Shown: positions 10,707 through 39,606 of the stretch, one piece after another
How positions within the stretch are numbered: the first letter of the stretch is position 1
How the letters are laid out: each line of letters begins with the position of its first letter
From: an uncultured Nocardioidaceae bacterium
Lineage (GTDB): Bacteria > Actinomycetota > Actinomycetes > Propionibacteriales > Nocardioidaceae
Direction of reading: 5' to 3'
Assembly: GCA_902805855.1 (NCBI GenBank)
Contig: CADCUJ010000112.1
Span: forward strand, 1 to 56,612
DNA: 56,612 bases
The notes under the pieces: generated by a model
Database searches by the model: none
Told to the model about the DNA's origin: nothing
The model's input: the letters and a program-made list of their open reading frames with translations, nothing else
Program-made: the position numbers and the translations under genes

Positions 10707-10713
10707 AGCTGAC

Positions 10714-11754: not shown

Positions 11755-11755
11755 G

Positions 11756-18945: not shown

Positions 18946-20349
18946 TCACACCTGGGCCCTCTCGGCCAGCGCGAGGAGGGCCTGGGTGAAGCACTCCATC
19001 GGCGGCGTGACCAGTCCGGCGCCGACCTGCCCGGTCCCGGCAACCCTCCCGGCCATGCCGGTGTTGATCTGGGGAAGCACCTGGGTTCGGGCGACGGCGG
19101 TGACGTCTATTCCGGTGGGCGCCCCACGGAAGTCCAGGATCGGGATCGCATACGCCGGGTTCTCGCCGACGGTGATGTCGTACATCCGTTGCGTCGTGGC
19201 CAGCGCGTCCGGGACGCTGCCGCCCACGAACCGCACGATGGCCGGCGCGGTGGCCATCGCGAGGCCACCGATGCCCGCGGTCTCGGTGATCGCGGAGTCG
19301 CCGATGTCGGGGTTGGCATCCTCCGGCCCGAAGTCGCCCAGGAACAGTCCTCTTGGGGTGTGGGCCGGCGCGATGAACCAGCGGTCGCCGGTCCCGGACA
19401 CCTGGATCCCGAAGTCGGTTCCGTTGCGGGCCATGACGCTGACCACGGTGCAGCCGGGGATGTCCGCCGCGGCGGCTGTCTGCAGCTTGCAGGCCGGCAT
19501 CCCGAGGTTCAGGAAGAAGTGGTCGTTGCTGCCGATGAAACGGGTTGCTTCGGCGACGTCGCGGCTTGGTGCGCCCGAGTCGATCAGGGCCGGTGCGACC
19601 TCGCGCAGGAACAGCAGTGTTCCGGCGCGGTTGCGATTGTGGCCCTCGTCGCCCATCTGCACCATCTGCGCGAGGATCGCCTTGACGTCGATCGGGTCGC
19701 CGGCTCGGACGGCGCGCTGCAGCAGCGGACCGAGGACGTCGCCCATCCAGCGCAGGCGCTCGATCACCTCCGGCGCGTAGGCGCCGTATCGAAGGACCTT
19801 GCCGAGCCCCTCGTTCAGCGAGCACCAAGAGCTGGACTCGTGTGCGTCGTCACGCAGCTCGAACAGCCACATCGACGAAGAGACGACACCGGCCATCGGT
19901 CCCACCCCGCCGTGGTGGTGGCACGGCTCCAGGCTCACCCCGTCGCCGGCCTCGAGCCTGCGCTCCGCGGCTTCGGGCGAGTCGGCGAGCCCCTCGAACA
20001 GCATCGCGCCGATGAGTGCGCCGCGCATCGGACCGGAGGCGCGTTCCCAGGTGAGCGGCGGTCCCGCGTGCAGGAACTGGCCGGGTGCCAGGTCCAACAC
20101 TTGCGAGGCCGGCCTTACGTCGACCAGGGTGGCCTCGGCGGACAGCATGGCCTCGAGCGCCCGCGCGTTCGCGGCCCGGCGTCTCGGGTCGAGCGAGACG
20201 GCAGCCAGGGCGTCGTCCGCACCGGCCACCGGCGGTCGCCAGTCGACCCTGGCCGTCGGAACGCCCTGCTGGTCCAAGGCGTCGGCCAGCAGTCCGGCAC
20301 CCGCGGTCACCACGCCGGCGGGCGCCACGAGGGGATGCAGCGTGCTCAT
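18946..20349 (-). CDS. DUF1116 protein, AllG/YlbE-like (oxamic transcarbamylase-type subunit)
   Basis: This 467-residue protein belongs to DUF1116 (E. coli YlbE, now AllG), one of three subunits of oxamic transcarbamylase with AllF (FdrA) and AllH. Notable conserved segments are LEPCHHHGGVGPMAGVVS and GDEGHNRNRAGT. In E. coli the complex phosphorolyses oxalurate to oxamate and carbamoyl phosphate. Here all three genes are present as a leftward operon. The ATG at 20349 overlaps the FdrA stop by four bases. The neighbouring rightward operon holds carbamate kinase and a barbiturase-like enzyme, so the carbamoyl donor may be ureidomalonate rather than oxalurate; that is inference. Confidence 0.85.
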   Translation of the reverse strand: MSTLHPLVAPAGVVTAGAGLLADALDQQGVPTARVDWRPPVAGADDALAAVSLDPRRRAANARALEAMLSAEATLVDVRPASQVLDLAPGQFLHAGPPLTWERASGPMRGALIGAMLFEGLADSPEAAERRLEAGDGVSLEPCHHHGGVGPMAGVVSSSMWLFELRDDAHESSSWCSLNEGLGKVLRYGAYAPEVIERLRWMGDVLGPLLQRAVRAGDPIDVKAILAQMVQMGDEGHNRNRAGTLLFLREVAPALIDSGAPSRDVAEATRFIGSNDHFFLNLGMPACKLQTAAAADIPGCTVVSVMARNGTDFGIQVSGTGDRWFIAPAHTPRGLFLGDFGPEDANPDIGDSAITETAGIGGLAMATAPAIVRFVGGSVPDALATTQRMYDITVGENPAYAIPILDFRGAPTGIDVTAVARTQVLPQINTGMAGRVAGTGQVGAGLVTPPMECFTQALLALAERAQV

Positions 20350-21788
20350 GGCCCGCCACCCGCCACGAGCAGATCCAACGCCGTGCGGGTGGCCTGGGCA
20401 TTGGAGCCGAAGACCCATGCCCCGGCCTGATGCAGCACCTCCGCCTGGCGACCGCGGTCCTGCGGATCGTCCCGGGTGCCCACCAGGGAGACCAGGACCG
20501 GGACCCCGACCGTGGTCGCTGCGCGCACCGCGTCGGAGAGCTCAGCAGCCGGCTCCAGGGTTGCGCCGTGTCCGAGGACCAGGTCGAGCAGCAGCACGCC
20601 ACAGCGCTCGTCCTTGATCTCGGCGAGCATCGCGTCGACCCGGATCGAGCCGTCGATCATCGGGTGCGGGCGGCCCTGGGTGAGCTCGTCGTCCCCGAAG
20701 TCGAGCAGCAGGTGGCCGGCGGCGCCGAGGTCATCGGTGCCGAGCCGGTGCTTGGCCAAGATCATCGCCTCGTCGCGCAGAGTCCCGCCGGCGAACAGCC
20801 CGCGCAGTCGACCGCCGGGTCGGCCTTCGGCCACCGCACCCTGCCGGCGTTCTGGTGGCTGCCACTGCAGTCCGAGAGCGGTCACCACCTGGTGCGCTGT
20901 CTCGGTGATGTCGGGTCGGCCTTCCCCGAGCAGCCCGAGGACCACCGGCTTGCCCAGCCGGTCGGCATGGTCTTGGACCCGCTGCGCCACGCCGGGTGCC
21001 GGAGGCTTGGACACCACCACGACGAGCTCGGTCGCCTCGTCGGCCGCGAGCAGGTCCAGGGCAGCCACGGTGGACAGCGCGCCGACCTGCTCGCTGAGGT
21101 CGCGCCCGCCGACCCCGACGCAGTGGCTGACCCCGACGCCGCTTCCGTCGAGCAGAGTCATCAGGTGCTGGGCGCCTGTGCCCGAGGCGGCGACGATCCC
21201 CACGGGTCCTGGGCGGACGACGTTGGCGAACCCGAGACCGACGCCACCGATCACCGCGGTGCCGCAGTCCGGGCCCATCACGATCACACCGTCGGCGTCC
21301 CGGGAGGCGGCGTACCGCTTCAGCGCGACTTCGTGCTCCAGGGACACGTTGTCGCTGAAGATCATCGTGTGCAGCCCGGCGTCGATCGCGTCGACGGCGT
21401 CCGCGACCGCGTACCGGCCCGGAGTCGAGATCAGCGCCACCTGGGCGTCAGCGGAGCGAGCCGCTGAGCGGATGGTCAACGGCGCCGGGGCGCCCCCGAA
21501 CTCGGAGACGGCGGGGGCCGTGACGGCCGCGACGACTCGATCCACCTCCGCCAGTGCCGAAGTCAGCGCCTCCTCGGACTCTGCGGCTACCGCGACCAGC
21601 ATCTCGTTCGGGCTGACCTGAGCCGGCGGGGTGAAGCCCATGGTCGTGGCCAGGTCGAGGTTCAGCTCGGTAGCCATCGCGACCAGAGCGGAGTGGACAC
21701 CTGGCAGCGCGGCCACCGACCGGCTGGCCTGCATCAGCGTGACCGAGTCGACGTAGGCGCCCTTGCGGACCTGTAGCGACCGGCTCAC
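20346..21788 (-). CDS. fdrA: FdrA/AllF-like carbamoyltransferase subunit (succinyl-CoA ligase fold)
   Basis: The 480-residue protein matches FdrA, a homolog of succinyl-CoA synthetase alpha. A Rossmann CoA-ligase-like part is seen with GPDCGT at residues 172-177 and ASGTGAQ near residue 201. A second ligase-like domain follows (GLFAGGTLRDEAMILAK, DFGDDELTQGRPHPMID). E. coli FdrA is the AllF subunit of oxamic transcarbamylase. The family does not make succinyl-CoA; no CoA synthetase beta subunit is nearby. The GTG start overlaps the DUF2877 stop (GTGA) and its end overlaps the DUF1116 gene, so the three are co-translated. Confidence 0.9.
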   Translation of the reverse strand: MSRSLQVRKGAYVDSVTLMQASRSVAALPGVHSALVAMATELNLDLATTMGFTPPAQVSPNEMLVAVAAESEEALTSALAEVDRVVAAVTAPAVSEFGGAPAPLTIRSAARSADAQVALISTPGRYAVADAVDAIDAGLHTMIFSDNVSLEHEVALKRYAASRDADGVIVMGPDCGTAVIGGVGLGFANVVRPGPVGIVAASGTGAQHLMTLLDGSGVGVSHCVGVGGRDLSEQVGALSTVAALDLLAADEATELVVVVSKPPAPGVAQRVQDHADRLGKPVVLGLLGEGRPDITETAHQVVTALGLQWQPPERRQGAVAEGRPGGRLRGLFAGGTLRDEAMILAKHRLGTDDLGAAGHLLLDFGDDELTQGRPHPMIDGSIRVDAMLAEIKDERCGVLLLDLVLGHGATLEPAAELSDAVRAATTVGVPVLVSLVGTRDDPQDRGRQAEVLHQAGAWVFGSNAQATRTALDLLVAGGGP

Positions 21789-22513
21789 GCCGCCGCCTCA
21801 ACCGTGCTCGTGGTCAGGACGTGCAGCACGCCAGACACCAGCCCCGCGCCGGAGGTGTGCCCGACGGCGAGCAGAGCCGACCTCGTCCGGTCGAGCATGT
21901 CCGCATCCGGAGGAGACGCGCACACCGCGCCGACGAACTGTGCGAGCGGGTCGGTGGCGTACCCGTCCAACGCACACAGCAGCATCGCCCGGGACACCGC
22001 GGTCGTCCGCCCCCGGCCGAGCTCGCGACGCACCGCCCGCTGCCATCCGGGCAGCCGCGGGTCCGCGATGGCATGCGCTGCCACCAGCGCGCCGGCGAGG
22101 ACGTCATCGCCGACCGGGGTGAGGCCGGGCCCGGCGCCGACCAGTGCCTCGGGGTCGAGGGGACCGGCGGTCTCGACGGGGCGGACCGGCGGAGGAGCCA
22201 GTCCACGAGGACGTGCGGGCCGCCACCAGCGGGCGACCCGCCAGCACGCCGCCGAGTCGCTCAGACGCCCATCCCTCACCGTCACCGACCCGCTGGGCAG
22301 CTTCTTGGTCACGACCGCGTTCGGCAGCCGCACCGCCTCCGGGGTGCACACACTGAGCACCGGCATGCCAGGGTCGCCGGTCTCGTAGTGGACGCTGACC
22401 CGGGTCCGGGACACCTCGACGGGCTCGACACCCGGCTCGCCCGGCTCGTCGGCCCGGTCGAGGAGACCTGTCAGCAGCGACGAGGCGCTGCAAGGCAGCT
22501 CACGCGTGGGCAC
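21785..22513 (-). CDS. DUF2877 protein, AllH/YlbF-like
   Basis: The 242-residue product contains the DUF2877 signature GAGPGLTPVGDD at residues 126-137. E. coli YlbF (AllH) is the third subunit of oxamic transcarbamylase. I chose GTG 22513, giving VPTRELPCSASSLLTGLL, because homologs start close to the SxLL motif; a TATCGT hexamer six bases upstream suggests a leaderless mRNA. An in-frame GTG at 22633 would run through the inverted repeats in the intergenic region and is less likely. It is the first gene of the leftward operon and diverges from the permease. Confidence 0.8.
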   Translation of the reverse strand: MPTRELPCSASSLLTGLLDRADEPGEPGVEPVEVSRTRVSVHYETGDPGMPVLSVCTPEAVRLPNAVVTKKLPSGSVTVRDGRLSDSAACWRVARWWRPARPRGLAPPPVRPVETAGPLDPEALVGAGPGLTPVGDDVLAGALVAAHAIADPRLPGWQRAVRRELGRGRTTAVSRAMLLCALDGYATDPLAQFVGAVCASPPDADMLDRTRSALLAVGHTSGAGLVSGVLHVLTTSTVEAAA

Positions 22514-22578
22514 GTACCGACGATAGGCCAGGTCGACCGGCCCGCAGACGAGGTCGCCACCTGACGCCCACGCTGGAC

Positions 22579-22663
22579 GGTGTGGCGACACCCCGCCGCG
22601 TCGGTGCTGGGCACCGACGCCGTGCTGGTGCACAGTGAGAGCCTGATCCGTCCGCGGGGACGG
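22579..22663. promoter_or_regulatory. Inverted repeats between the two divergent catabolic operons
   Basis: The divergent intergenic region (22514-22686) holds three perfect inverted repeats: GGTGT/ACACC with a four-base loop at 22579-22592, GCGTCGGTGC/GCACCGACGC with a three-base loop at 22598-22620, and CCGTCC/GGACGG with a four-base loop at 22648-22663. The last ends about ten bases before the permease ribosome binding site. They could be operators for a regulator encoded elsewhere, or leader hairpins. No promoter is obvious. Confidence 0.5.
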
Positions 22664-22686
22664 TACGTGTGGGGCAGGAGGTCGCC

Positions 22687-24201
22687 ATGTCGATGTTCTC
22701 GTGGAAGGTCGTGCACGACGGGAAGACGCCGCCGCCGGGTGCCGCGGTGGCGCCGGACGAACGGCTCTCGTGGGGGAGGACCGCAGGCCTCGGCGCCCAG
22801 CACGTGGTGGCGATGTTCGGGGCGACGTTCGTCTTCCCGATCATCATGGGTCTCAACCCGCAGCTGGCGATCATGATGAGCGGCATCGCCACAATCGCCT
22901 TCCTGCTCATCGTGCAGGGCAAGGTGCCCAGCTACCTCGGCACCAGCGCCTCGTTCGTGGGTGGAGCGTTCGCGATCTACGGACAAGGCGGTGACGCCGC
23001 GGACGTCACCGGAGCCGTGCTGGTCGCCGGGGTCGTGCTCGCCGCGGTCGGCGTGCTGATCCACTTCCTCGGCTCCGGCGTGCTGCACGCGGTTCTTCCG
23101 CCGGTGGTCACCGGCGCGGTGGTGATGCTGATCGGGTTCAACCTGGCGCCGGTGGTGGCCAACGTCTACTGGCCGCAGGACCAGTGGATCGCGCTGATCA
23201 CGATGACCGCGGTGATCTTGATGGCTGTGGGCCTGCGCGGCTTCTTCGGCCGGATCGCGGTCTTCCTCGGGCTGATCCTCGGCTACGCACTGTCCTGGCT
23301 GTTCGACCGCGTCGGCCCGATCACCTCCGTGCTGCCCGGGCAGAACCTTCGCGGGCCCGACGGCCAGCCCTGCGACACCGAGGGCACCTACTGCGTGGCC
23401 ACCGCGTTCGAGCACGACCGGGTCAGCTGGGACGCCGTCCGCGCGGCCGACTGGATCGGCTTTCCTCCCGCCAGCGACTTTGCCAACGGCGTCGTGGGCT
23501 ACCACGCTCCGACGTTCAGCCTGGCTTTCGTGCTGCTGATGCTGCCGGCCGTGATCGCTCTCGTCGCCGAGAACACCGGCCACGTCAAGGCGGTCGCGGA
23601 GATGACCCGGCACGACCTCGACCCGGTGATGGGCAGGGCGATCGGGGCCGACGGCGTCGGCACCGTGATCGCATCCTCGGTGGGCGGCTCGCCGACCACG
23701 ACCTACGCCGAGAACATCGGGGTGATGGCGGCGACGCGGGTGTACTCGACCGCGGCCTACTACGTGGCGGCCGTGGTGGCGATCCTGTTCGGCCTGTGCC
23801 CGAAGTTCGGCGCCGTGGTCTCGGCGACACCGGGAGGGGTGCTCGGCGGTATCACCGTCGTCCTCTACGGGATGATCGGCCTGCTGGGCGCGAAGATCTG
23901 GAAGGAGAACCGGGTGGACTTCGCCAACCCGGTGAACCTGGTCCCGGTCGCCGCGGGCATCATCATCGCGATCGGCAACACCTCGCTACAGGTCACCGAC
24001 GACTTCGAGCTGTCCGGGATCGCGCTGGGAACCATCGTCGCCCTGGCCGCCTACCACCTCTCCCGCGCCGTGGCTCCGCCAGACCTGCGCGACGAGGGAA
24101 CGTTGATCGCGGTCGGCCGCGAAGGAGTGCACCACGACGACGCGGACCATCGCGACAACGCCGGACGACGAGGCGACTCGGAGCGGCCAACGACTTCGTG
24201 A
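22687..24201 (+). CDS. NCS2 family nucleobase permease (uracil/xanthine type)
   Basis: The 504-residue protein is a nucleobase:cation symporter of the NCS2 family with about 14 hydrophobic segments. The family's central motifs are present: AENTGHVKAV with the substrate-binding glutamate, and GGSPTTTYAENIGVMAATRVYS. The last is closer to UraA-type (uracil) transporters than to uric acid ones, but substrate cannot be fixed by eye. ATG 22687 follows CAGGAGG. As first gene of the ten-gene rightward operon it implies that a pyrimidine or purine is imported. The stop overlaps the GTG of the next gene. Confidence 0.92.
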   Translation: MSMFSWKVVHDGKTPPPGAAVAPDERLSWGRTAGLGAQHVVAMFGATFVFPIIMGLNPQLAIMMSGIATIAFLLIVQGKVPSYLGTSASFVGGAFAIYGQGGDAADVTGAVLVAGVVLAAVGVLIHFLGSGVLHAVLPPVVTGAVVMLIGFNLAPVVANVYWPQDQWIALITMTAVILMAVGLRGFFGRIAVFLGLILGYALSWLFDRVGPITSVLPGQNLRGPDGQPCDTEGTYCVATAFEHDRVSWDAVRAADWIGFPPASDFANGVVGYHAPTFSLAFVLLMLPAVIALVAENTGHVKAVAEMTRHDLDPVMGRAIGADGVGTVIASSVGGSPTTTYAENIGVMAATRVYSTAAYYVAAVVAILFGLCPKFGAVVSATPGGVLGGITVVLYGMIGLLGAKIWKENRVDFANPVNLVPVAAGIIIAIGNTSLQVTDDFELSGIALGTIVALAAYHLSRAVAPPDLRDEGTLIAVGREGVHHDDADHRDNAGRRGDSERPTTS

Positions 24202-25061
24202 AGCCCTCCCCGTTCACCTACCACCGCCCGCACAGCGCCGACGAGGCCGTCGAGCTGCTGCGCGCCTACGGCGACTCCGCGAAGGTGCTTGCCGGAGGAC
24301 AGTCACTGGTGCCGCTGATGTCGATGCGGCTCGCCGCACCGGAGCACCTCGTCGACATCAACCGGGTCGAGGCGCTGCAGTCGGTGGAGGTCGGCGAGGA
24401 CGAGGTGCGGGTCGGCGCCGCGGTGCGGCACTCGCGGCTCGAGCGCGACGAGGAGGTGTACGGCGCGGTCCCGCTGCTGCGCCAAGGCCTGGTCAACGTC
24501 GCCCATCCCGCCATCCGGAACCGGGGGACCACGGTCGGCAGCCTGGTGCACGCCGACCCGGCGGCGGAGATGGCCGCTGTGCTCCTCCTGCTCGACGGCG
24601 TGGTCGAGCTGCGGTCGGCCACAGACTCCCGGGAGGTCGCGGCGGCGGACTTCTTCCTCGGCCCCATGCAGTCCGCGACCGGACCCGGGGAGCTGGCAGT
24701 GGCCGCCCGGTTCGGCCGGCCGCCTCCCGGAAGCGGGTCGGCCTTCGTGGAGCTGTCCCGCAGGCAGGGTGACTACGCGATGTGTGGCGTCGGCGCGCTG
24801 GTCACCACCGGGCAGGAGTCCGAGATCACCTCGGCCAAGGTGGCCCTGGTCGGTGTCGGCGACGGCCCGGCGCTGGTCGACGTGACCTCGGCCGCGGCGG
24901 GGCCGGGCGGTGCGTTCCGCGAGCCGCAGCTGGCGGAGCTGCTCGCGTCGCAGATCGCCCCGGAGAGCGACATCCACGCCAGCGCCGAGTACCGTCGCCA
25001 TCTTGCGCTGGTGCTGACCCGCCGAGCGCTGGGTCAGGCGCACGAGCGGGCGGCGGCATGA
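24198..25061 (+). CDS. Molybdenum hydroxylase FAD-binding subunit (CoxM-like)
   Basis: The 287-residue protein is the medium, FAD-binding subunit of a xanthine dehydrogenase/CO dehydrogenase family enzyme. The two FAD-binding loops are AGGQSLVPLMSMRLA near residue 34 and NRGTTVGSLVHADPAAE near residue 110, and RQGDYAMCGVGA is also typical. It passes electrons from the iron-sulfur subunit to an acceptor. GTG 24198 overlaps the permease stop and the stop overlaps the next ATG. Confidence 0.93.
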   Translation: MKPSPFTYHRPHSADEAVELLRAYGDSAKVLAGGQSLVPLMSMRLAAPEHLVDINRVEALQSVEVGEDEVRVGAAVRHSRLERDEEVYGAVPLLRQGLVNVAHPAIRNRGTTVGSLVHADPAAEMAAVLLLLDGVVELRSATDSREVAAADFFLGPMQSATGPGELAVAARFGRPPPGSGSAFVELSRRQGDYAMCGVGALVTTGQESEITSAKVALVGVGDGPALVDVTSAAAGPGGAFREPQLAELLASQIAPESDIHASAEYRRHLALVLTRRALGQAHERAAA

Positions 25062-25600
25062 ACACCGGCAGCACGAACACCGAGCAGACCGTCGCGGTCT
25101 CGGTGACCGTCAACGGCACGCCCTACGTCGTCGACGTACCTCCTCGACGCCTGCTCTCCGATGCGCTGCGGCACGACCTCGGGCTGACCGGCACCCACGT
25201 CGGCTGCGAGCACGGCGTGTGCGGCGCCTGCACGGTGCTGGTCGACGGCGCCCCGATCAGGTCCTGCCTGGTCTTCGCGGTCAGCCTGGACGGGACACAG
25301 ATCACCACCGTCGAGGGGTGTTGTGCCGACGACGGCGAGATGGGACCGGTGCAGCAGGCTTTCCAGGACTGCCACGCCCTCCAGTGCGGCTTCTGCACGC
25401 CGGGTTTCATCACCTTGATCACCGGTTACCTCGAGGACAACCCGGCGCCGACGCCAGCGGAGGCGAGCGAGGCGATCGCGGGCAACCTGTGTCGATGCAC
25501 CGGCTACCAGAACATCGTCGCCGCCGTGCAGCGGGCCGCTGAGCTGCGGCGTCCGGTGGTGGAGGAGCGTGCCTCTCGAAGCCCCGGCGAGGACCGATGA
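25058..25600 (+). CDS. Molybdenum hydroxylase [2Fe-2S] subunit (CoxS-like)
   Basis: The 180-residue small subunit carries two [2Fe-2S] clusters. The plant-ferredoxin-type cluster uses Cys50, Cys55, Cys58 and Cys70 (GCEHGVCGACTVLVDG). The second uses Cys110, Cys113, Cys145 and Cys147 (CGFCTPG and CRCTGY). All eight ligands are intact, so the electron relay should work. The ATG overlaps the FAD subunit stop and its stop overlaps the large subunit ATG. Confidence 0.96.
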   Translation: MNTGSTNTEQTVAVSVTVNGTPYVVDVPPRRLLSDALRHDLGLTGTHVGCEHGVCGACTVLVDGAPIRSCLVFAVSLDGTQITTVEGCCADDGEMGPVQQAFQDCHALQCGFCTPGFITLITGYLEDNPAPTPAEASEAIAGNLCRCTGYQNIVAAVQRAAELRRPVVEERASRSPGEDR

Positions 25601-28005: not shown

Positions 28006-28634
28006 AGATCTCCGGCACCGCCCAGCTCAGCTCCGACCGTGAGTCGGTGTGGCGCGCGCTGAACGACCCGGAGGTCCTGGTGCGCTGCATCCCGGGCTGC
28101 CAACGCCTGGAGGCGGTCGGCGCGGACGCGTTCAAGATGACGCTGAACGCCGGGGTCGGCTCCATCCGTGGCGTGTACGACGGCCAGGTCAGCCTGCACG
28201 ACCAGCAGGAACCGGGGTCGTTCCGGATGCAGGCCCGAGGCACCGGGGCTCCGGGCACGATCGGCGCCGACGTGCTGGTGAGGCTGGAGCCCGGGGACGA
28301 CGGCGGCACGTCGTTGTCCTACGAGGCAGACGCCACCGTCGGAGGGATGATCGGCGGCGTCGGCCAACGGATGTTGACCGGTGTCTCGAAGCGGATGGCG
28401 GCCGACTTCTTCGGCAACGTGGACACCGCGCTCGCCGGGACGCCCGAACCGGCCAGCACCGCTGCGTCCCCCTCGGACCGGGCGCCGGGCTCGCCGGCGG
28501 CTCCGGTGTTCACCGCACCGCAGTCGGTCCCGACGGGCGGGTCGTCGTTCGCGCTCGGCGTCGCCGTGGGCGCGGCTGCCGGGTTGGCGGGCGCCGTCGT
28601 CGGGGCCTGGATCGCGGGACGGCGGAGCGGCTGA
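28002..28634 (+). CDS. CoxG-like SRPBCC protein with C-terminal membrane anchor
   Basis: The 210-residue protein starts with an SRPBCC domain of the CoxG family (SGTAQLSSDRESVWRALNDPE, then CIPGC). The last 30 residues are a hydrophobic helix followed by RRSG, after a proline/serine linker. CoxG of Oligotropha recruits the Mo hydroxylase to the membrane, and the anchor here suggests the same job, linking oxidation to the respiratory chain. The ATG overlaps the large subunit stop. Confidence 0.9.
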   Translation: MKISGTAQLSSDRESVWRALNDPEVLVRCIPGCQRLEAVGADAFKMTLNAGVGSIRGVYDGQVSLHDQQEPGSFRMQARGTGAPGTIGADVLVRLEPGDDGGTSLSYEADATVGGMIGGVGQRMLTGVSKRMAADFFGNVDTALAGTPEPASTAASPSDRAPGSPAAPVFTAPQSVPTGGSSFALGVAVGAAAGLAGAVVGAWIAGRRSG

Positions 28635-30062
28635 GTGCACGACATCGACCGGCACAGCTCTGCCAGAGACATGGTGGCAGCGGTCGCCGCCAAGGCGATC
28701 TCCGCGCGCGAGCTGCTGGAGCTGCACCTCGCCCGGATCGCAGCGGTCAACCCGGCCGTGAACGCGGTCGTGTCGCTGGATCCGGAGCGCGCCCGCGAAG
28801 CTGCCGCGGCCGCCGACGAGGTGACTGCGGCGGGGGAGCGGCTCGGTCCACTGCACGGGCTGCCCTTCGCGTTCAAGGACACCCACGAGGTGGCCGGCTG
28901 GCCGACCACGTTCGGGTCGCCGCTGATGGCCGGCCACGTCTCGCAGCGAGACGACCTCGTCGTCGAGCGGATCCGGGCTGCCGGCGTCGTGGTGATCGGC
29001 AAGACCAACGTGCCGGAGTGGGCAGCGGGGTCGCACACGTTCAACCCGGTCTTCGGCACCACGCGCAACCCCTACGACCTCTCCCGCTCCGCCGGCGGGT
29101 CGAGTGGAGGAGCCGCCGCGGCCCTGGCCAGCGGCATGGTGCCCCTGGCCGACGGCAGCGACATGGGTGGCTCGCTGCGCAACCCCGCCTCGTTCTGCAA
29201 CGTCGTGGGCCTGCGTCCGAGCCTCGGGCGGGTGCCGAGCTGGCCAACCCGCAACGCGTGGGAGCCGCTGTCGGTCACCGGACCGATGGCCAGAGGCGTC
29301 GACGACCTGGCCCTGCTGCTCTCGGTCGTCGCCGGGCCGGATGCCCGCTCCCCCCAGGCACTGGAGACGCCCGGCTCCGCCTTCGCGAGAACCACACCCG
29401 CCGACCTGAACGGGCTGAGGGTCGCCTTCTCCGTCGACCTCGGCGGCGCCTTCGAGGTCGAGGACGACGTGGCCGGGGTGCTGAATGCCCAGCGTGAGCT
29501 GCTCAGCGGCACCGGGGCTCGCGTGGGCGAGGCGTACCCGGACCTCCGTGGTGCCGACGGGGCCTTCCGGACGCTGCGGGCGTGGCACTTCGCCCACCGG
29601 TTCGGCGCGCTGCTTCGCAGTGACCCGGACGCCTTCAAGGCCTCACTGGCCGGCAACATCCGCGAGGGCGAGCCGGTGACGGGTGCCGAGGTGGCGCGGG
29701 CGTTCCAGACCCGCACAGAGATCGGTGAGCGGGTCCGTGAGTTCTTCACCCAGCACGACGTGCTGGTGATGCCGGTCAGCCAGGTGCCGCCGTTCAGCGC
29801 GGACGAGGAGTACCCGTCGCTGATCAACGGCCGCGCCCAGCCGACGTACCTGGACTGGATGCGTTCTGCCTACCTGATCACCATGACCGGGTGCCCGGCG
29901 ATATCGGTGCCAGCAGGGTTCACCGGCCAGGGCTGGCCGGTCGGCGTCCAGGTCGTCGCCGCGCCGAACCATGAGCTGCGGCTGCTGCAGTTCGCCCGTG
30001 CCTTCGAGATGGCCAATCCGGCGGGTCGGCGCCGGGCTGTGCTCGGCGAGGAGGCGGCTTGA
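28635..30062 (+). CDS. Amidase signature family hydrolase (candidate ureidomalonase or malonamidase)
   Basis: The 475-residue protein has the complete Ser-cisSer-Lys triad of the amidase signature family: Lys81 in FKDTHEV, a serine in GGSSGG (156/157) and nucleophile Ser180 in GSDMGGSLR. The family includes malonamidase E2, which converts malonamate to malonate and ammonia. Ureidomalonase of the oxidative uracil pathway is an amidohydrolase acting at the same point of the pathway. In this operon it could hydrolyse ureidomalonate directly or malonamate after carbamoyl removal. GatA of the tRNA amidotransferase is unlikely because no gatB/gatC is near. GTG 28635 immediately follows the coxG stop. 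Confidence 0.88.
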   Translation: MHDIDRHSSARDMVAAVAAKAISARELLELHLARIAAVNPAVNAVVSLDPERAREAAAAADEVTAAGERLGPLHGLPFAFKDTHEVAGWPTTFGSPLMAGHVSQRDDLVVERIRAAGVVVIGKTNVPEWAAGSHTFNPVFGTTRNPYDLSRSAGGSSGGAAAALASGMVPLADGSDMGGSLRNPASFCNVVGLRPSLGRVPSWPTRNAWEPLSVTGPMARGVDDLALLLSVVAGPDARSPQALETPGSAFARTTPADLNGLRVAFSVDLGGAFEVEDDVAGVLNAQRELLSGTGARVGEAYPDLRGADGAFRTLRAWHFAHRFGALLRSDPDAFKASLAGNIREGEPVTGAEVARAFQTRTEIGERVREFFTQHDVLVMPVSQVPPFSADEEYPSLINGRAQPTYLDWMRSAYLITMTGCPAISVPAGFTGQGWPVGVQVVAAPNHELRLLQFARAFEMANPAGRRRAVLGEEAA

Positions 30063-32125
30063 GCATCCGGATCGGCATCGACACCGGAGGTACCTTCACC
30101 GACGTGGTCGCGGTCGACGACGAGACCGGCACGGTGGTGACCACCAAGACGCCCTCGACGCCGAACGACCCGGCGATGGGCTTCATGGCCGGCGTGCACA
30201 AGGTGCTCGCCGCACTCGGTCTGGCCGGTGACCAGGTCACCGCGGTGAGCCACGGCACGACGGTGGCGACGAACAAGCTGCTCGAGGGCAAGGTCGACGA
30301 CCTCGGCTTCATCACCACCGAGGGCTACGAGTTCGTGCTGGAGATCGCGCGGCAGTCGGTGCCGGACGGCTACGGGAACTCGTACTTCTGGGTGAAGCCG
30401 GACCGGATCGTGCCCGCGGACCGGGTCCGGACCGTCCCCGGCCGGTTCACGGCTCGAGGCGAGGAGGTCAGAGCCTTCGACGAGGCCGCTGCCGTGGACA
30501 CCGCGCGCTGGTTCCGGGAGCGGGGGATCGACTCGATCGGGGTCTGCTTCCTGCACTCCTATCTCGACAGCAGCCACGAGCGGGCGATGCGCGCGGCCCT
30601 CGAGCGTGAGCACCCGGGCGCCACGGTGTCGATCTCCAGCGACGTGCTGGCTGAGTACCGTGAGTACGAACGCAGCGTCACCACGTTGGTCGACGCCGCG
30701 GTCAAGCCGAGCATCCGCAGCTACGTCGAGAACATCGGCTCGCGGCTCGGCGAGCTGGGAGCTGAGGGTGCCGCACCGATCCCGTTCTACGTGATGAAGT
30801 CGAACGGCGGCGTGCTGTCGGCCGACGAGGTCGTCCATCAGCCGATCACGACGGTGCTGTCCGGGCCGGCCGCGGGAGCGCTGGGTGCTGCGGTGGTGGC
30901 GCAGAGCGCCGGATTCGCGCGCGTGGTCACCTGCGACGGTGGCGGTACCTCGACCGACGTCACCGTGGTGACCGACGGCCGGCCCGCCCTGACCACGGAG
31001 GGCACCGTGGGGGCGTATCCCAGCAAGATCCCGATGATCGACGTGGTGACCGTCGGTGCCGGGGGAGGGTCTGTCAGCTGGATCTCGCCCGAGGGGACGC
31101 TCAAGGTCGGGCCCCGGTCGGCCGGGGCCGACCCGGGACCGATGTGCTACCGGACCGGCGGCACCGAGCCGACCGTCACCGACGCCCATCTCCTGCTCGG
31201 GCGCATCCCACCGCACCTGCTGGGCGGCGAGGTGCCGTTGGACGTCGAGGTCGCGGCGAGCGGCATCGAGCAGCTGGGTGAGTCGCTCGCCCTGACGGGG
31301 GAGGCCTGCGCCAGCGGTGTGCTGGAGATCTCGGCGTGGAACCAGGCCAACGCCCTGCGGCAGGTCACGGTCCGCCGCGGCCTGGACATCCGCGAGTTCA
31401 CCCTGGTGACCTTCGGGGGATCCGGCTCGCTGCTTGCCTGCCGGCTGATCGACATCCTCGGGCTCGACGGGGTGCTCGTGCCGCTCAACCCGGGCAACCT
31501 CTCGGCGTTCGGCCTGCTGACGGTCGACGTCCGCAACGACTACGTGCAGACAGCAGTGACCCGTGCCTCGCAGCTCAACAGCAGCCGGGTGCAGGCGAGG
31601 TTCGAGGACCTCACCGGCCGGGCCGATGCCGCCCTGGAGCGTGCGGGCTTCCCACCGAGCCAGCGCAGCTTCTTGCGTACCGCCGACCTTCGGTACTTCG
31701 GTCAGGCCTACGAGGTGCGGGTGGACGTGCCCGACGGTCCGATGACCGACGAGCTGGCCTCGGCTGTCGGCGACGCGTTCCACGAGGAGCACCGGAGGTT
31801 GTACGGATACGACTTCCGAGACGACCAGCGGCAGGAGGTGGAGTGGGTGAACCTGCGGGTCAGTGGCGTCGGGCCGATCCGCAAGCCAGCGCTCGTCGAA
31901 GTCGCGCGTGGGACCGGCGCGGAGCTGGCGGGGACCGGATCCCGCCGCGTGTACTTCGAGGACTGGGTGGACACGCCCGTCTACGACCGTGCCCTGCTCG
32001 GGGCCGGAGACGAGATCCACGGTCCGGCGGTGCTGGAGGAGTTCAGCTCGACGGTTCCCCTGCACCCGGGCTTCACCGCACGCGTGGACGACTACGGCAA
32101 CCTGGTGATCCGGAGGAGCCCGTGA
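30059..32125 (+). CDS. Hydantoinase/oxoprolinase subunit A (HyuA family)
   Basis: The 688-residue protein belongs to the ATP-dependent hydantoinase/5-oxoprolinase A family. The actin-like ATP-binding fold shows GIDTGGTFTDVV at residues 5-16, SHGTTVATN, and DGGGTSTDV. With subunit B it would open or modify a lactam or cyclic imide at the cost of ATP; relatives also include caprolactamase and acetone or acetophenone carboxylases, so the reaction is open. The TTG start at 30059 overlaps the amidase stop (TTGA) and the stop overlaps the HyuB start. Confidence 0.9.
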   Translation: MSIRIGIDTGGTFTDVVAVDDETGTVVTTKTPSTPNDPAMGFMAGVHKVLAALGLAGDQVTAVSHGTTVATNKLLEGKVDDLGFITTEGYEFVLEIARQSVPDGYGNSYFWVKPDRIVPADRVRTVPGRFTARGEEVRAFDEAAAVDTARWFRERGIDSIGVCFLHSYLDSSHERAMRAALEREHPGATVSISSDVLAEYREYERSVTTLVDAAVKPSIRSYVENIGSRLGELGAEGAAPIPFYVMKSNGGVLSADEVVHQPITTVLSGPAAGALGAAVVAQSAGFARVVTCDGGGTSTDVTVVTDGRPALTTEGTVGAYPSKIPMIDVVTVGAGGGSVSWISPEGTLKVGPRSAGADPGPMCYRTGGTEPTVTDAHLLLGRIPPHLLGGEVPLDVEVAASGIEQLGESLALTGEACASGVLEISAWNQANALRQVTVRRGLDIREFTLVTFGGSGSLLACRLIDILGLDGVLVPLNPGNLSAFGLLTVDVRNDYVQTAVTRASQLNSSRVQARFEDLTGRADAALERAGFPPSQRSFLRTADLRYFGQAYEVRVDVPDGPMTDELASAVGDAFHEEHRRLYGYDFRDDQRQEVEWVNLRVSGVGPIRKPALVEVARGTGAELAGTGSRRVYFEDWVDTPVYDRALLGAGDEIHGPAVLEEFSSTVPLHPGFTARVDDYGNLVIRRSP

Positions 32126-33987
32126 CCGACAGCTCTGCGGTCTTGACCGAGATCGTCGATGGCTACCTCGCGTCGGTCGAGCAGGAGGTGGAGACGGCGA
32201 TCGGGCGCACGTCGAGGTCACCGATGATCCGCGACGCGCACGACTACCGCGCCGGCATCCACGACCGCAGGCTGCGCAAGCTCACCGGCCGGTCCTACTC
32301 GGCGCTGGTGCACCCGGTCGTGCGGGACTACCCCATCGAGACCATGCAGCCCGGTGACGTGTTCTTCCACAACGACGTGTACCTGTCCGAAGGGGGCATC
32401 GGCCACCTGCCGGACCTATGCGTGACCGCGCCGGTCTTCCACGATGACGGAGGCGGCCCGCAGGTGGTCGCGTTCGTCCAGGCCTTCGGGCACCACGACG
32501 ACATCGGCGGCGCCGTGCCGGGGTCGATGCCGAGCAACGCGACCAGCGTGTACGAGGAGGGCCTGATGGTGCCCCCGATCCGGCTCTGGCAGGCGGGCGT
32601 CCCGAACGAGGCGGCACTGAAGATCATGACCCGCAACTCCCGGATGCCCGACTCGCTCGCGGCCGACCTCGACGCCGAGTGCTCGGCGTGCCTGATGGGG
32701 GCTCGCCGGCTGGCCGAGCTGTTCGAGAGGTACGGCCGCGAACGGGTGGAGACGTGCTTCGACGCGCTACTCGAGAAGACCACCGCCACCTTCCGACGCG
32801 AGGTGCTGTCGAAGATTCCCGAGGGCTCCTACACCTGGGAGGACTACGCCGAGCACGACGGCGTCGACGAGCCGCGGCTGCACACCCAGCGGATCACCTT
32901 GACGAAGACCGCGCACTCCGACCCGGGTGGCGAGCGGCTGGTCCTGGACTTCGACGGCACCGCGCCCCAGGCGAAGGGGCCGATCAACCACTGCGGGGAC
33001 TACGCCGACGGGAACTTCTTGAAGAAGTGGCTGGCTCCGGTGCTGCGCAACCTCGCCGACACCCCCGAGCGGATGGCCCAGCTCGACGTGAACGAAGGCG
33101 TGGTCCCGCTGATCGAGATGCGCTTCCCACCACCCGGCACGCTGCTGACCCCGGTGTTCCCGGCGCCCACGAACGCGCGAACCTTCGTGATCCTGCGACT
33201 GCTCGGCGTGCTGGCCGGGGTGGTCGCCAAGGCGGTCGACGGGAGGATGCCTGCGGACCAGGAGACGATCCGCTACACCGGGGTGTACGGCGATGACCTC
33301 GACGGGACGCCGTACCTGATGCGTGAGGTCCTCGGCGGCGGATCCGGCGGCCGCTACTACGCCGACGGCGAGGACACGATCCACGTCGTCCCGGACTCTC
33401 GCAACCTGCCCACCGAGTTCTCCGAGGCGCGCTTCCCGTTCCTGGTCGAGCGGCTCGGCCTGGCCGTCGACAGCGGCGGGCCGGGCCGCTTCCGCGGCGG
33501 TCTCGGCTACGAGAAGCACATCCGGATGCTTCGGGACGCGCACTTCATGTCGATCGCGGACCGCTCGATCCTGTCCTGCTGGGGGGTTCGAGGCGGCAGG
33601 GCCGGCAAGTCGTTCTCGGTGACCATCGACCCCGGAGGGTCGGCCGAACGCGAGGTCGACGCGCTCGCGGACGCCGAGCCGGTGCGCGCCGGCGAGCTGA
33701 TCCGGATCCGCACCACCGGAGGTGGTGGCTGGGGTGACCCGCTGGAACGGCCCTACGACGAGGTGGTCCGGGACGTGCTCTGGGGCAAGGTGTCGGTCCA
33801 GGCCGCCCGCGAGGAGTACGGCGTCGTCCTGGGCGGTCTCGCCGACGCCCCCCTTCTGGACGCCCGGGCCAGCGACTCGTTGCGCGCGCGGATGCGCTCT
33901 GGTCGCGGGGAGGTCCCGTTCTTCGACCGCGGACCGGGCTATGCGAGGCTCTCCGGCGGGGCAGCCACCGCAGCGGTGGACTGGTGA
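32122..33987 (+). CDS. Hydantoinase/oxoprolinase subunit B (HyuB family)
   Basis: The 621-residue partner of HyuA shows the family's metal-site region: RSPMIRDAHDYRAGI, then GDVFFHNDVYLSEGGIGHLPD, and AFGHHDDIGGAVPGSMP. Later blocks include DFDGTAPQAKGPIN and GRFRGGLGYE. It would carry the substrate site of an ATP-dependent amide-hydrolysing or carboxylating complex. Which ring or amide is attacked is unknown; barbiturate opening is already covered by the amidohydrolase downstream. GTG 32122 overlaps the hyuA stop by four bases. Confidence 0.9.
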   Translation: MTDSSAVLTEIVDGYLASVEQEVETAIGRTSRSPMIRDAHDYRAGIHDRRLRKLTGRSYSALVHPVVRDYPIETMQPGDVFFHNDVYLSEGGIGHLPDLCVTAPVFHDDGGGPQVVAFVQAFGHHDDIGGAVPGSMPSNATSVYEEGLMVPPIRLWQAGVPNEAALKIMTRNSRMPDSLAADLDAECSACLMGARRLAELFERYGRERVETCFDALLEKTTATFRREVLSKIPEGSYTWEDYAEHDGVDEPRLHTQRITLTKTAHSDPGGERLVLDFDGTAPQAKGPINHCGDYADGNFLKKWLAPVLRNLADTPERMAQLDVNEGVVPLIEMRFPPPGTLLTPVFPAPTNARTFVILRLLGVLAGVVAKAVDGRMPADQETIRYTGVYGDDLDGTPYLMREVLGGGSGGRYYADGEDTIHVVPDSRNLPTEFSEARFPFLVERLGLAVDSGGPGRFRGGLGYEKHIRMLRDAHFMSIADRSILSCWGVRGGRAGKSFSVTIDPGGSAEREVDALADAEPVRAGELIRIRTTGGGGWGDPLERPYDEVVRDVLWGKVSVQAAREEYGVVLGGLADAPLLDARASDSLRARMRSGRGEVPFFDRGPGYARLSGGAATAAVDW

Positions 33988-34013
33988 GCCGAGAGGGAAC
34001 GGGAGGTGCGCAG

Positions 34014-34955
34014 ATGAGAGTGCTGCTGGCCCTGGGAGGCAACGCACTGGCCGCCGACGACGGACGGGTCCGACCGCAGGACCAGATAGCGGCTGCTCAG
34101 GCCGCCATGAAGTGCGTCGCAGACCTGCTCACCCGCGACATCGAGGTCGTGCTGACCCACGGCAACGGGCCACAGGTCGGGAACCTCCTGGTGAAGAACG
34201 AGATCGCGGCCTCCGTGGTGCCCCCGGTCCCGCTGGACTGGTGCGGCGCCTCGACCCAGGCCACGCTCGGTTTCGTGCTCATGCAGGCGCTCGACGACGC
34301 ACTTGCCGGGGGCGACCCGCAGGCCCGTAGCGCGACGATCGTCACGCGCACCCTGGTCGACCCCGACGACCCCGGCTTCGGCAAGCCGAGCAAGCCGATC
34401 GGGAGGTACCTGCCGAAGGAGGAGGCAGCGCTGCTGGTCGAGCACGGGGAGACGTGGCAGGACCGCGGCGCCAGGGGCTGGCGCCGCGTCGTGCCCTCGC
34501 CGCAACCGCTGGAGATCCTCGACGCACCGGCGGTCACCGCGCTCGTCGAGGCCGGCTTCGTCGTTGTCGCCAACGGCGGCGGAGGCATCCCGGTGGTGCG
34601 AGAGGCGGGTGGCCTGCGGGGCGTCGAAGCCGTGATCGACAAGGACCTCGGGGCGGCACTGCTGGCCAGGACGGTCGCTGCCGACGTACTGGTGATCGCC
34701 ACCGACGTGCCGGCGGCCGTCCTCGGCTTCGGCACGCCTGGCCAGAAGGCGATCGGCCGGATCGCCGTGAGCGCGATGCGCAAGTACGCCGACGAAGGTC
34801 ACTTCGGCAGCGGCTCGATGAGTCCCAAGGTCGAGGCTGCCTGCCGCTTCGTGGAGGCCGGAGGAAGGTACGCCGTGATCAGCGACCTCGACGGCATCAT
34901 CGACGCTGTGGCCGGGAAGACGGGCACTGTCGTGGTACCGGACGAGGAGAGCTGA
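34014..34955 (+). CDS. Carbamate kinase
   Basis: The 313-residue enzyme makes ATP from carbamoyl phosphate and ADP, releasing carbamate. [16 protein letters not shown] opens the protein, [11 protein letters not shown] binds the nucleotide, and [10 protein letters not shown] and [12 protein letters not shown] are also typical of ArcC. ATG 34014 follows GGGAGG by seven bases; a GTG at 33984 overlapping HyuB is possible but adds residues outside the family. No arginine deiminase or ornithine transcarbamylase for the ADI pathway is in this operon, so the carbamoyl phosphate must come from another reaction, plausibly the FdrA/DUF1116/DUF2877 complex. Confidence 0.93.
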
Positions 34956-36079
34956 TGCCAGAGCCGATCGAAGTACGCAAGGTCCCCATCCTCAGTGTCT
35001 CCGACGCGAGCGGTCTGGCCGGCCTGATCGATCAGGGCGTGCTCGAGGCGGATCGAGTCGTCGCGGTGATCGGGAAGACCGAGGGCAACGGCGGGGTCAA
35101 CGACTACACCCGCATCATCGCCGACCGCGCCTTCCGCGAAGTGCTCGTCGCGAAGGGCAGCCGCAGCGCGGAGGAGGTCAACCAGGTGCCGATCGTCTGG
35201 TCGGGGGGCACCGATGGTGTGCTCAGCCCGCACGCGACGGTGTTCGCGACGATCCCGGCCGACCAGGCCGAGCAGACCGACGAGCCGAGACTGACCGTGG
35301 GTTTCGCGATGAGCGAGATGCTGCAGCCCGAGGACATCGGCAGGACTGCGATGGTGACGAAGGTCGCGGAAGCGGTGGAGGTCGCGATGGGGCGCGCCGG
35401 GATCTCCGACCCCGCGGACGTGCACTACGTGCAGACCAAGACCCCGCTGCTGACGATCCACAGCATCCGGGACGCGAAGAGCCGCGGGAAGACCGTGTGG
35501 ACCGAGCACACGCACGAGTCGATGGACCTGTCCAACGGGTGCACCGCGCTCGGGGTCGCGGTCGCGCTGGGGGAGATCGACATGCCGCGCGACGAGGACG
35601 TCATGCACGACCGCTCGCTCTACTCGAGCGTCGCCTCGTGCTCCAGCGGCGTGGAGCTGGACCAGGCACAGGTGGTCGTGGTGGGCAACACGCGCGGTGT
35701 GGGCGGGCGGTACCGGATCGGCCACTCGGTGATGCGCGACGCCCTGGACGCGGACGGGATCTGGGCAGCGGTCAAGGACTCCGGTCTCGAGCTGCCGGAG
35801 CGGCCGCACGTCTCCGATCTCGATGGCCGCCTGGTCAACGTCTTCCTCAAGTGCGAGGCGTCCCAGGACGGTGAGGTCCGTGGCCGCCGCAACGCCATGC
35901 TCGACGACTCCGACGTGCACTGGCACCGGCAGATCAAGGCATGCGTGGGCGGGGTCACCGCCGCGGTGACCGGTGACCCGGCTGTGTTCGTGTCGGTCTC
36001 CGCGGCGCACCAGGGACCGGACGGCGGCGGCCCGGTGGCTGCGATCGCCGACCTCGGGCCAGGCGACGCGAAAACCTGA
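34955..36079 (+). CDS. Ring-opening amidohydrolase, barbiturase/cyanuric acid hydrolase family
   Basis: The 374-residue protein is a member of the small family containing barbiturase and cyanuric acid hydrolase. The three-fold repeat and its Ser-Lys pairs are visible: Lys41 ([15 protein letters not shown]) with Ser83 (VWSGGTDGV), Lys162 (QTKTPLL) with Ser231 (SCSSGVE), and Lys299 (FLKCEAS) with a serine at 347-349 ([15 protein letters not shown]). Family members hydrolyse six-membered cyclic imides. Neighbouring Mo-hydroxylase and NCS2 genes favour barbiturate over cyanuric acid, but eye inspection cannot exclude the latter. The ATG overlaps the carbamate kinase stop by one base. It ends the operon. 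Confidence 0.92.
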
Positions 36080-37145: not shown

Positions 37146-38231
37146 ATGACGGCCGCAAGACGGTGCTACCTGCACGTGGGACTGCCCAAGACCGGCACGT
37201 CGTACCTCCAGGACATCTTCGCGCAGTCTCGGGCCGCCCTGGCCGACCAGGGCGTGTCGATGCTGCTCGGCAGCACCGCGGACACCTTCCATCTTGCGCT
37301 GTCGGTGCTCGACGAGCTGAGCCCCGAGATGGACCCGCCGCGTGCCTTCAGGGCACTCGACCGGTTCCGGGAAGCCCTGGCCGGACTGTCCAGCCCGACT
37401 GCGCTGCTGAGCCAGGAGCTGCTCGGTGCGGCACAGCCACACCAGGCCGCGAGACTGCTGGACGCGCTCGGCGGCTACCAGCCTCACGTGGTGGTGACCG
37501 CGCGCGACCTTGCCCGGTACATCCCGTCGGCATGGCAGCAGCAGGTCAAGCAGCGCGGTCTGACGTCGTACGAGCAGTACCTGGGCGACTTCACCGACCC
37601 GGCCAAGGGCGCGCACTATCCGGCCTACGACCTGATCGGGGTTCTCGAGCGGTGGCGGGAGTGCGTGGCACCGGACCGGATCCACGTCGTCACGCTGCCA
37701 CCGTCCGGAGCACCGTCCGCGGTCCTGCTGGAGCGCTTCTGCGCGGTCCTCGACGTCGACCCGAGTGCGATGGACCAGGAGACGGAGCGGCGAAACGACT
37801 CCCTCGGCATGGTCCAGGCCGAGCTGCTGCGCCGGGTGAACGTCGCCCTGGGGGACCGGCTGCCTCATCCGCGGGCCGGCTACCGCGAGCAGGGCAAGAG
37901 CTTCCTGGGTCAGACGATCCTGGCCGCGCAGCCCGGTGAGCCGGCCCGGCTGCCGAGGCGGCTGGAGCAGTGGTGCGTCGACGCGTCGCAGGACCTGGCC
38001 GACCGGCTCGCCGGCGGTGGGTACCACATCGTGGGCGATCTGGGGGACCTGGCTCCGGACCCGGACGCCTTCACCGATGACGACCGCGGCGTCGGCGACG
38101 ACGCGGTAGCACGAGTGGCGACGACCGCACTGGCCGAGATTTTGGTGGGCCGAGACGTCGAACGCAGGGAACGACAGGCTCTGCGCAGAGAGGTACGAGC
38201 CCTGCGGAAGCAGGCCGCGGACCCGACCTAG
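37146..38231 (+). CDS. Sulfotransferase-like P-loop protein
   Basis: The 361-residue product begins with LHVGLPKTGTSYLQ (residues 9-22), the phosphosulfate-binding loop of PAPS-dependent sulfotransferases. The rest is divergent, with VTARDLARYIPSAWQQ at about the position of the 3'-phosphate-binding region, and a basic coiled C-terminus. The acceptor substrate is unknown. Its final CTAG also contains the stop of the convergent kinase-like gene. Confidence 0.75.
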   Translation: MTAARRCYLHVGLPKTGTSYLQDIFAQSRAALADQGVSMLLGSTADTFHLALSVLDELSPEMDPPRAFRALDRFREALAGLSSPTALLSQELLGAAQPHQAARLLDALGGYQPHVVVTARDLARYIPSAWQQQVKQRGLTSYEQYLGDFTDPAKGAHYPAYDLIGVLERWRECVAPDRIHVVTLPPSGAPSAVLLERFCAVLDVDPSAMDQETERRNDSLGMVQAELLRRVNVALGDRLPHPRAGYREQGKSFLGQTILAAQPGEPARLPRRLEQWCVDASQDLADRLAGGGYHIVGDLGDLAPDPDAFTDDDRGVGDDAVARVATTALAEILVGRDVERRERQALRREVRALRKQAADPT

Positions 38232-39551: not shown

Positions 39552-39606
39552 GTCCTGGTCTCCGGTGCGCACGGGTCGCGACGACAGAACCACAACTGGA
39601 GGACCT

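Follow-up and report, generated by a model that had tools for sequence, protein, structure and literature searches.

The oxidative pathway of pyrimidine breakdown was worked out by Soong, Ogawa and Shimizu, and its ureidomalonase was reportedly found in Rhodococcus erythropolis. As outlined in the available part of PMC3758960, the pathway proceeds from barbiturate through barbiturase and ureidomalonase to malonate and urea. The oxamic transcarbamylase of Escherichia coli is AllFGH, which goes together with carbamate kinase (available part of PMC11326118), and in nitrifiers AllFGHK genes beside triuret and biuret genes were read as serving oxalurate degradation (available part of PMC12625717). 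Here, a locus holding a barbiturase gene together with AllFGH and carbamate kinase genes was analyzed, located at positions 18946-36079 of a stretch of 56,612 nucleotides (the window) from an uncultured Nocardioidaceae bacterium (assembly GCA_902805855.1, contig CADCUJ010000112.1, positions 1-56,612).

This locus is likely to be an oxidative pyrimidine module with a phosphorolytic AllFGH branch that conserves adenosine triphosphate (ATP). Uracil would be taken up by an NCS2 permease and oxidized to barbiturate by a three-subunit molybdenum (Mo) hydroxylase (subunits moM, moS and moL), and barbiturase is assigned, by orthology to the characterized enzyme, the opening of barbiturate to ureidomalonate. 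By analogy with the conversion of oxalurate to oxamate and carbamoyl phosphate, the AllFGH proteins specific to barbiturase genomes would cleave ureidomalonate with phosphate into malonamate and carbamoyl phosphate, from which carbamate kinase would form ATP, ammonia and CO2. Malonamate would be hydrolyzed to malonate by an amidase, or by a nitrilase-type hydrolase in relatives, and malonate may be converted to acetyl-coenzyme A (acetyl-CoA) by two proteins whose genes lie in another part of the genome, a type III CoA-transferase and an AccDA-like protein. Apart from the ring opening, we infer every step of this pathway.

Identity of the ring-opening enzyme

Judged by its sequence, the ring opener of the window is a barbiturase (EC 3.5.2.1), orthologous to the characterized enzyme, and not a cyanuric acid hydrolase. 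It scores 698 bits against the protein named 'Barbiturase' in PDB entry 5hwe versus 331 bits against the best cyanuric acid hydrolase, and is 86% identical to the orthologue of R. erythropolis NBRC 15567, which itself differs from 5hwe at a single one of 368 aligned residues. A tree of 58 proteins places the window protein with that R. erythropolis enzyme and away from five distant PF09663 proteins. This agrees with the barbiturase-like label of the initial annotation, for which activity on cyanuric acid alone had been the competing possibility. The NCBI model for cyanuric acid amidohydrolase, NF052395, does give the window protein 484 bits, over its cut-off of 360, which would suit a cluster degrading cyanuric acid or another s-triazine. 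Nonetheless, the scores and the tree led us to reject such a cluster, the permease resembles RutG, and a cytosine deaminase-like family is found in five related loci, making an s-triazine pathway extremely improbable. Given that this equivalog model scores above its cut-off, databases may misname this barbiturase.

Relatives of the ring-opening amidohydrolase were also seen in 132 plasmid records, 130 of them less than 60% identical, including 67 from Rhizobium and many from enterobacteria. The two closest plasmid matches, which carry no annotation, were gene-mapped in the present analysis.

Conservation of the gene set

Two samples were examined. In 396 genomes of the phylum, among them that of the window, PF09663 is present in 27 and AllG in 49. 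The PF09663 proteins divide by identity to the window protein into 22 at 65.6% or more and five at 37-43%; AllG accompanies all 22 of the former (window's genome included) and none of the five latter. Similarly, a moL of at least 66% identity occurs in 24 of the 396 genomes, namely in 21 of the 22 with barbiturase versus 3 of the 374 others (G013, G028 and G378). The one-sided Fisher probabilities of co-occurrence, which ignore kinship, are 7e-23 for AllG and 1e-30 for moL; the 22 genomes belong to seven family codes. The conservation called for in the initial annotation is present.

The second sample comprises 101 ring-opener loci: the window, 80 loci from named genomes and 20 others, two of these 20 carrying distant ring openers. 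Those from named genomes, chosen as the best 80 among 557 relatives, each reach 10 kilobases (kb), so that their neighbor counts are lower bounds for a close set. Carbamate kinase is a neighbor in 88 of the 101 loci, HyuB in 52 and CoA-transferase III in 50. Genome-wide searches for AllG and other families cover 49 genomes of the named loci, 30 of these loci being left out. For carbamate kinase and AllG, 40 of 44 of these genomes have both on one contig and 39 have them at most 50 kb apart, with Phycicoccus elongatus (G429) as the scattered exception among the same-contig cases; the distance from moL to AllG is at most 50 kb in 40 of 44. The recurrence of the gene set in many genomes shows that the grouping is more than chance.

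The window's layout, with AllGFH divergent from permease-moM-moS-moL-coxG, is seen in G397, G406, G062, G085, G424 and others, where an amidase or a nitrilase-type hydrolase comes after coxG, with hyuAB next, and a PucR gene occupies the divergent gap. Gene order differs in other classes. In L044 it reads barbiturase, permease, carbamate kinase, AllH, AllF, AllG, NmrA-like, moM, moS, moL, coxG, amidase. In the locus L051 of a metagenome-assembled genome, carbamate kinase precedes barbiturase and an amidase follows it. An Embleya replicon that is not one of the 101 loci carries most of the set in a span of 35 kb, while its AllG lies outside the mapped stretch.

AllFGH and its likely substrate

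All three AllFGH subunits and carbamate kinase are present at the locus (PF06545, PF00549/NF004760, PF11392, TIGR00746/NF009007). Their families are those of the corresponding E. coli proteins, to which they are 37-47% identical, which could mean that they form an ordinary oxamic transcarbamylase system for oxalurate derived from allantoin, brought next to a pyrimidine operon by chance or by shared nitrogen control. PucR-type regulators, named after purine catabolism, near the clusters of relatives would also suit that function. Nonetheless, the phylogenies place the barbiturase-linked proteins elsewhere. In a careful AllG tree of 55 proteins, the 31 proteins of barbiturase genomes form a single clade (support 99/95), to which five AllG from G013, G028, G032, G135 and G157 are sister (98/95 jointly); E. 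coli AllG falls outside. The clade does not take in a second AllG of the barbiturase genome G386. A quick tree of 41 AllF proteins agrees, with a barbiturase-genome clade (97) that excludes E. coli AllF, so that neither protein groups with the E. coli oxamic transcarbamylase. In E. coli, oxalurate is formed by AllD. No AllD (TIGR03175) exceeds the cut-off in any of 71 barbiturase genomes, where weaker relatives occur in 16, and the window's genome has no match, although oxalurate could have another source; a control search found matches in 4 of 14 genomes, E. coli included, one of them over the cut-off. An ordinary oxalurate system is disfavored by the AllD count and the separate clades, and the restriction of these clades to barbiturase genomes, as well as the proximity of moL to AllG, also makes it highly unlikely.

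The substrate of the barbiturase-linked AllFGH would rather be ureidomalonate, by analogy: ureidomalonate is N-carbamoyl-malonamate just as oxalurate is N-carbamoyl-oxamate. The sole solved AllG relative found is the uncharacterized protein 3clq.

In nine loci, AllF and AllG form one open frame (L268 at 9612-12617, L275 at 7778-10873, L165, L166, L167, L170, L172, L177 and L179). Two of the nine frames lie outside the barbiturase-linked set and seven inside it, these seven being cut by the locus edge. Their sequences suggest natural fusions.

The Rhodococcus exception and urease

AllG is present in 45 of the 49 named barbiturase genomes, and the four without it are exactly the four Rhodococcus: Rhodococcus sp. 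IEGM 1409, R. erythropolis, Rhodococcoides (Rhodococcus) fascians and Rhodococcus sp. AW25M09. Their loci have an amidase after barbiturase and no carbamate kinase beside it; genome-wide, carbamate kinase matches are weak in three (best 37-39 bits) and located elsewhere in AW25M09 (325 bits). Rhodococcus retains HyuAB, barbiturase and, in three of the four, moL, and in R. erythropolis (L060/L249) barbiturase is clustered with a Mo-type oxidizing enzyme as it is in the window. In the tree of barbiturases, those of the four Rhodococcus form one group (99) nested among the proteins of other genomes, and its position beside four of these has a support of 84. This nesting suggests that a replacement took place in that lineage, and speaks against its being the older state.

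All four AllG-less Rhodococcus have urease alpha, while 56 of 67 AllG-bearing genomes have no strong match (E below 1e-20), two further matches being marginal, and the window's genome has no urease alpha match. In the available part of PMC11326118, urease-negative enterics have AllFGH and carbamate kinase and urease-positive Klebsiella lacks them, a pattern that the barbiturase genomes mirror. The absence of AllG in Rhodococcus alone (4/49), the separate AllG and AllF clades and the AllD count lend sequence-level support to the ATP-yielding phosphorolytic branch that the initial annotation had proposed.

These observations also bear on another explanation, in which barbiturase and the amidase form the classical route to malonate and urea, and AllFGH and carbamate kinase serve another ureido acid of the same regulon, such as a product of HyuAB. 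This would give HyuAB a step that it otherwise lacks, and would account for the AllFG, HyuAB and moL relatives that occur without PF09663 in the five genomes of the sister AllG group; moreover, the window amidase and that beside the R. erythropolis barbiturase both fit NF005686. However, these two amidases are only 39% identical and the window's is swapped for an unrelated CN hydrolase in relatives, while Rhodococcus, with HyuAB, barbiturase and mostly moL but no AllG, indicates that AllFGH is dispensable to HyuAB. In addition, with no strong urease match in most AllG-bearing genomes, urease would not recover the nitrogen of the urea. For these reasons, a classical route in the window is considered improbable.

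Gene organization of the locus

The 13 genes that the initial annotation had placed in two divergent operons were all recovered at their coordinates by family-model matches, three on the minus strand (18946-22591) and ten on the plus strand (22687-36079):

18946-20349, minus strand: allG-like gene (DUF1116), subunit of the proposed ureidomalonate transcarbamylase; PF06545 312 bits; 47% identity to E. coli AllG; in the barbiturase-genome clade
20346-21788, minus strand: allF/fdrA-like gene; PF00549 93 bits; NF004760 'FdrA' 374 bits, under the cut-off of 433; 37% identity to E. coli AllF
21785-22591, minus strand: allH-like gene (DUF2877); PF11392 78 bits; start uncertain
22592-22686, no strand: divergent intergenic stretch of 95 bases, presumed site of both promoters
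22687-24201, plus strand: NCS2 nucleobase permease, RutG-like; PF00860 254 bits; best NCBI model TIGR03616 RutG, 339 bits, under the cut-off of 759
24198-25061, plus strand: Mo hydroxylase flavin adenine dinucleotide subunit (moM); PF00941, PF03450
25058-25600, plus strand: Mo hydroxylase 2Fe-2S subunit (moS); PF01799, PF00111
25597-28005, plus strand: Mo hydroxylase molybdopterin subunit (moL), proposed uracil dehydrogenase; PF20256, PF02738, PF01315; NF040766
28002-28634, plus strand: CoxG-like gene, presumed Mo-enzyme accessory; PF06240 99 bits
28635-30062, plus strand: amidase-signature hydrolase, proposed malonamate amidohydrolase; PF01425 356 bits; NF005686 470 bits
30059-32125, plus strand: HyuA-like subunit, relative of ATP-dependent hydantoinase/oxoprolinase; PF01968, PF05378, PF19278
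32122-33987, plus strand: HyuB-like subunit; PF02538 447 bits
34014-34955 (or from 33984 if GTG), plus strand: carbamate kinase; TIGR00746 341 bits, just under the cut-off of 358; NF009007 317 bits, over its cut-off
34955-36079, plus strand: barbiturase; PF09663 487 bits

The overlaps of one to four bases noted in the initial annotation hold for most of the 11 same-strand junctions, with nine of -4 bases and one of -1 (carbamate kinase/barbiturase); the junction of CoxG and amidase is 0. The -4 overlap of HyuB and carbamate kinase requires the start GTG 33984; ATG 34014, which is preceded by GGAGGT and looks likelier from the sequence, leaves a gap of 26 bases instead. The start of AllH is uncertain (22591 or 22633, among others), and the 95-base spacing of the operons applies to 22591. 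The PucR-family regulator that sits between AllH and the permease in relatives is absent from this gap, which was the only part of the genome searched for it. A GNAT gene overlaps the 3' end of barbiturase by one base, and was left out of the set because its family has four members in the 101 loci, not adjoining barbiturase in the loci shown.

Downstream of the locus, the window carries a small kinase-like ATPase (38231-38830; PF13238, PF00485) and translation initiation factor IF-3 (39505-40281, judged from the translation alone). Both flanking families also recur 3' of barbiturase in several relatives.

The molybdenum hydroxylase

The model for aerobic carbon monoxide (CO) dehydrogenase group 5, NF040766, gives the window moL 1491 bits against a cut-off of 950 (and that of R. 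erythropolis 1401 bits), and a CoxG gene adjoins, as would be expected if the locus combined CO oxidation with an unrelated catabolic operon. However, the alignment shows YRGAGR in moL where the CO dehydrogenases 1n5w and 1ffu have YRCSFR, a loop whose cysteine is an active-site residue, and a CO dehydrogenase identity was rejected on the absence of this cysteine. Proteins with YRGAGR are reportedly named form II CO dehydrogenases in some papers. The closest solved relatives of moL are quinoline 2-oxidoreductase (1t3q, 452 bits) and 6-hydroxypseudooxynicotine dehydrogenase (448 bits), followed by CO dehydrogenase (382 bits), and the glutamate of the KGxGE motif is retained. Given also that moL occurs almost wholly in barbiturase genomes, there is next to no chance that the enzyme is an aerobic CO dehydrogenase in such a combined locus.

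Among the named barbiturase genomes, 47 of 49 have a moL of at least 63% identity; none this close is present in P. acaciae, and none was found in Rhodococcus AW25M09, whose barbiturase locus ends within moM. This near restriction of moL to genomes with barbiturase points to uracil as the probable substrate, and the Mo hydroxylase would then be a dehydrogenase of uracil and perhaps also of thymine. To our knowledge, no gene has been assigned to uracil dehydrogenase; none was found in a literature search, which covered few subscription papers. NF040766 (moL, 25597-28005) and NF052395 (barbiturase, 34955-36079) probably give wrong names to these two members of the pathway in public genomes.

In the genome G181 (L048/L264), which has no AllG, a ring opener of 41% identity and an amidase adjoin a Mo hydroxylase of 53% identity. 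This locus is possibly a hydrolytic relative of the module.

The amidase, HyuAB and malonate

The slot between coxG and hyuA was compared in 34 stretches from 32 genomes, two genomes being counted twice (L093 with L277, L060 with L249). It holds an amidase in 12 and a CN hydrolase in 10, never both, and the sharing of one slot by two unrelated amide hydrolases fits a single amide-hydrolysis step such as malonamate to malonate. The closest solved relatives of the window amidase are GatA, urethanases and biuret hydrolase (181 bits), with malonamidase E2 at 88 bits, which does not settle the substrate; malonamate is the one that the pathway would predict.

HyuA and HyuB are homologous to subunits of ATP-dependent hydantoinases, and the closest PDB entry to the window HyuA is the N-methylhydantoinase 7hk5 (462 bits). 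HyuB is present in 48 of 49 named and 19 of 22 phylum barbiturase genomes (not in G086, G269 and G304), and in all six genomes with moL or AllG relatives and no barbiturase (G013, G028, G378, G032, G135 and G157). It tends to accompany moL, although G086 and G269 have moL without HyuB, and its retention in Rhodococcus shows that it is not tied to AllFGH. As a guess, HyuAB could be a second ring opener, acting for example on 5-methylbarbiturate from thymine.

CoA-transferase III and AccDA-like families recur near barbiturase, as judged from one scanned member per family, and in the window's genome the two occur together, on a contig other than that of the locus. From family and position, the pair would fit the conversion of malonate to acetyl-CoA.

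Weighing of the proposed pathway

Several observations count against a phosphorolytic pyrimidine module. HyuAB has no step in it, neither hydrolase occupies the coxG-hyuA slot in 12 of the 34 stretches, and by the NCBI models the Mo subunit would be a CO dehydrogenase and the barbiturase a cyanuric acid amidohydrolase. The five genomes sister in the AllG tree have AllFGH with moL and HyuAB relatives and no PF09663, which means that AllFGH is not tied to barbiturase alone. Conversely, in the Nonomuraea replicon L302 barbiturase is accompanied only by relatives of CoA-transferase and of AccDA and by a distant CN hydrolase, with no carbamate kinase, moL or AllFGH within 17 kb. In G304, barbiturase and AllHFG stand with another three-subunit Mo hydroxylase, of 29% identity, and HyuB is missing; P. 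acaciae (G402) likewise has no HyuB, and no close moL, but does carry barbiturase, carbamate kinase and AllFGH; and the AllG-bearing Arachnia locus L080 has no carbamate kinase beside barbiturase, one being found near a second AllG. Finally, urease is present in 11 of 67 AllG-bearing genomes, and the Rhodococcus swap with its urease contrast amounts to one event, given that the four Rhodococcus are one lineage.

The absence of PF09663 is less sure for G013 and G028, whose assemblies are fragmented. A search for alternative ring openers found in G032 a PF04199 cyclase beside AllH as well as an AMP-binding protein, and in G135 an AMP-binding ligase. G157 was gene-mapped; the one extra gene scanned is an M29 peptidase, and the HyuB frame holds a stop. 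G032, G135 and G157 (L257, L258 and L259) belong to one family, with moL relatives, HyuAB and AllFG and no PF09663, and their genes may serve a sister pathway that acts on a different ring.

A broader proposal can be built on the phosphorolytic module. The ATP-yielding form would be the common and older oxidative pyrimidine route, and the Rhodococcus route to malonate and urea a derived exception of urease-bearing bacteria; the Mo enzyme listed in databases as CO dehydrogenase group 5 would be the missing uracil dehydrogenase; and HyuAB would use ATP to open another ring, that of 5-methylbarbiturate derived from thymine, and would thereby also supply AllFGH. This combination is put forward tentatively, and that all its parts are correct is doubtful.

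Comparison with known systems

The backbone of the pathway and each protein family are known, and what would be new is a phosphorolytic branch of the AllFGH type in the oxidative breakdown of pyrimidines. We know of no gene assigned to a transcarbamylase that cleaves ureidomalonate and forms malonamate. No description of such a branch was found in the literature, a search outside which most subscription papers lay and which is therefore weak evidence of absence. The locus offers candidate genes for this transcarbamylase and for uracil dehydrogenase, and would add to the AllFGH family a substrate other than oxalurate. Substrate-level phosphorylation with uracil as the source of ATP is suggested for many actinobacteria, whereby uracil breakdown appears to regain part of the molecule as ATP rather than release urea.

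The Mo hydroxylase shares with quinoline 2-oxidoreductase and other N-heterocycle Mo hydroxylases the three-subunit family, the closest large subunit (1t3q) and the KGxGE glutamate; it differs in its proposed substrate, uracil, and in the database name of its subfamily, CO dehydrogenase group 5. Like the AllFGHK genes of nitrifiers, the window's AllFGH adjoins other ureide-degradation genes, whereas 'barbitur' is absent from the available text of PMC12625717. With E. coli AllFGH, as far as the available part of its description goes, the window shares the three subunits, carbamate kinase and, presumably, phosphorolysis of an N-carbamoyl amide. In contrast to E. coli, its AllG and AllF fall in separate clades linked to barbiturase and a Mo hydroxylase instead of allantoin genes, AllD does not exceed the cut-off, and the substrate would be ureidomalonate. 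Finally, the locus resembles the classical oxidative pathway, in its partly available account, by its barbiturase orthologue, the oxidation before ring opening and malonate as product, but AllFGH and carbamate kinase would replace ureidomalonase, and the carbamoyl unit is proposed to leave as carbamoyl phosphate, yielding ATP, instead of as urea.

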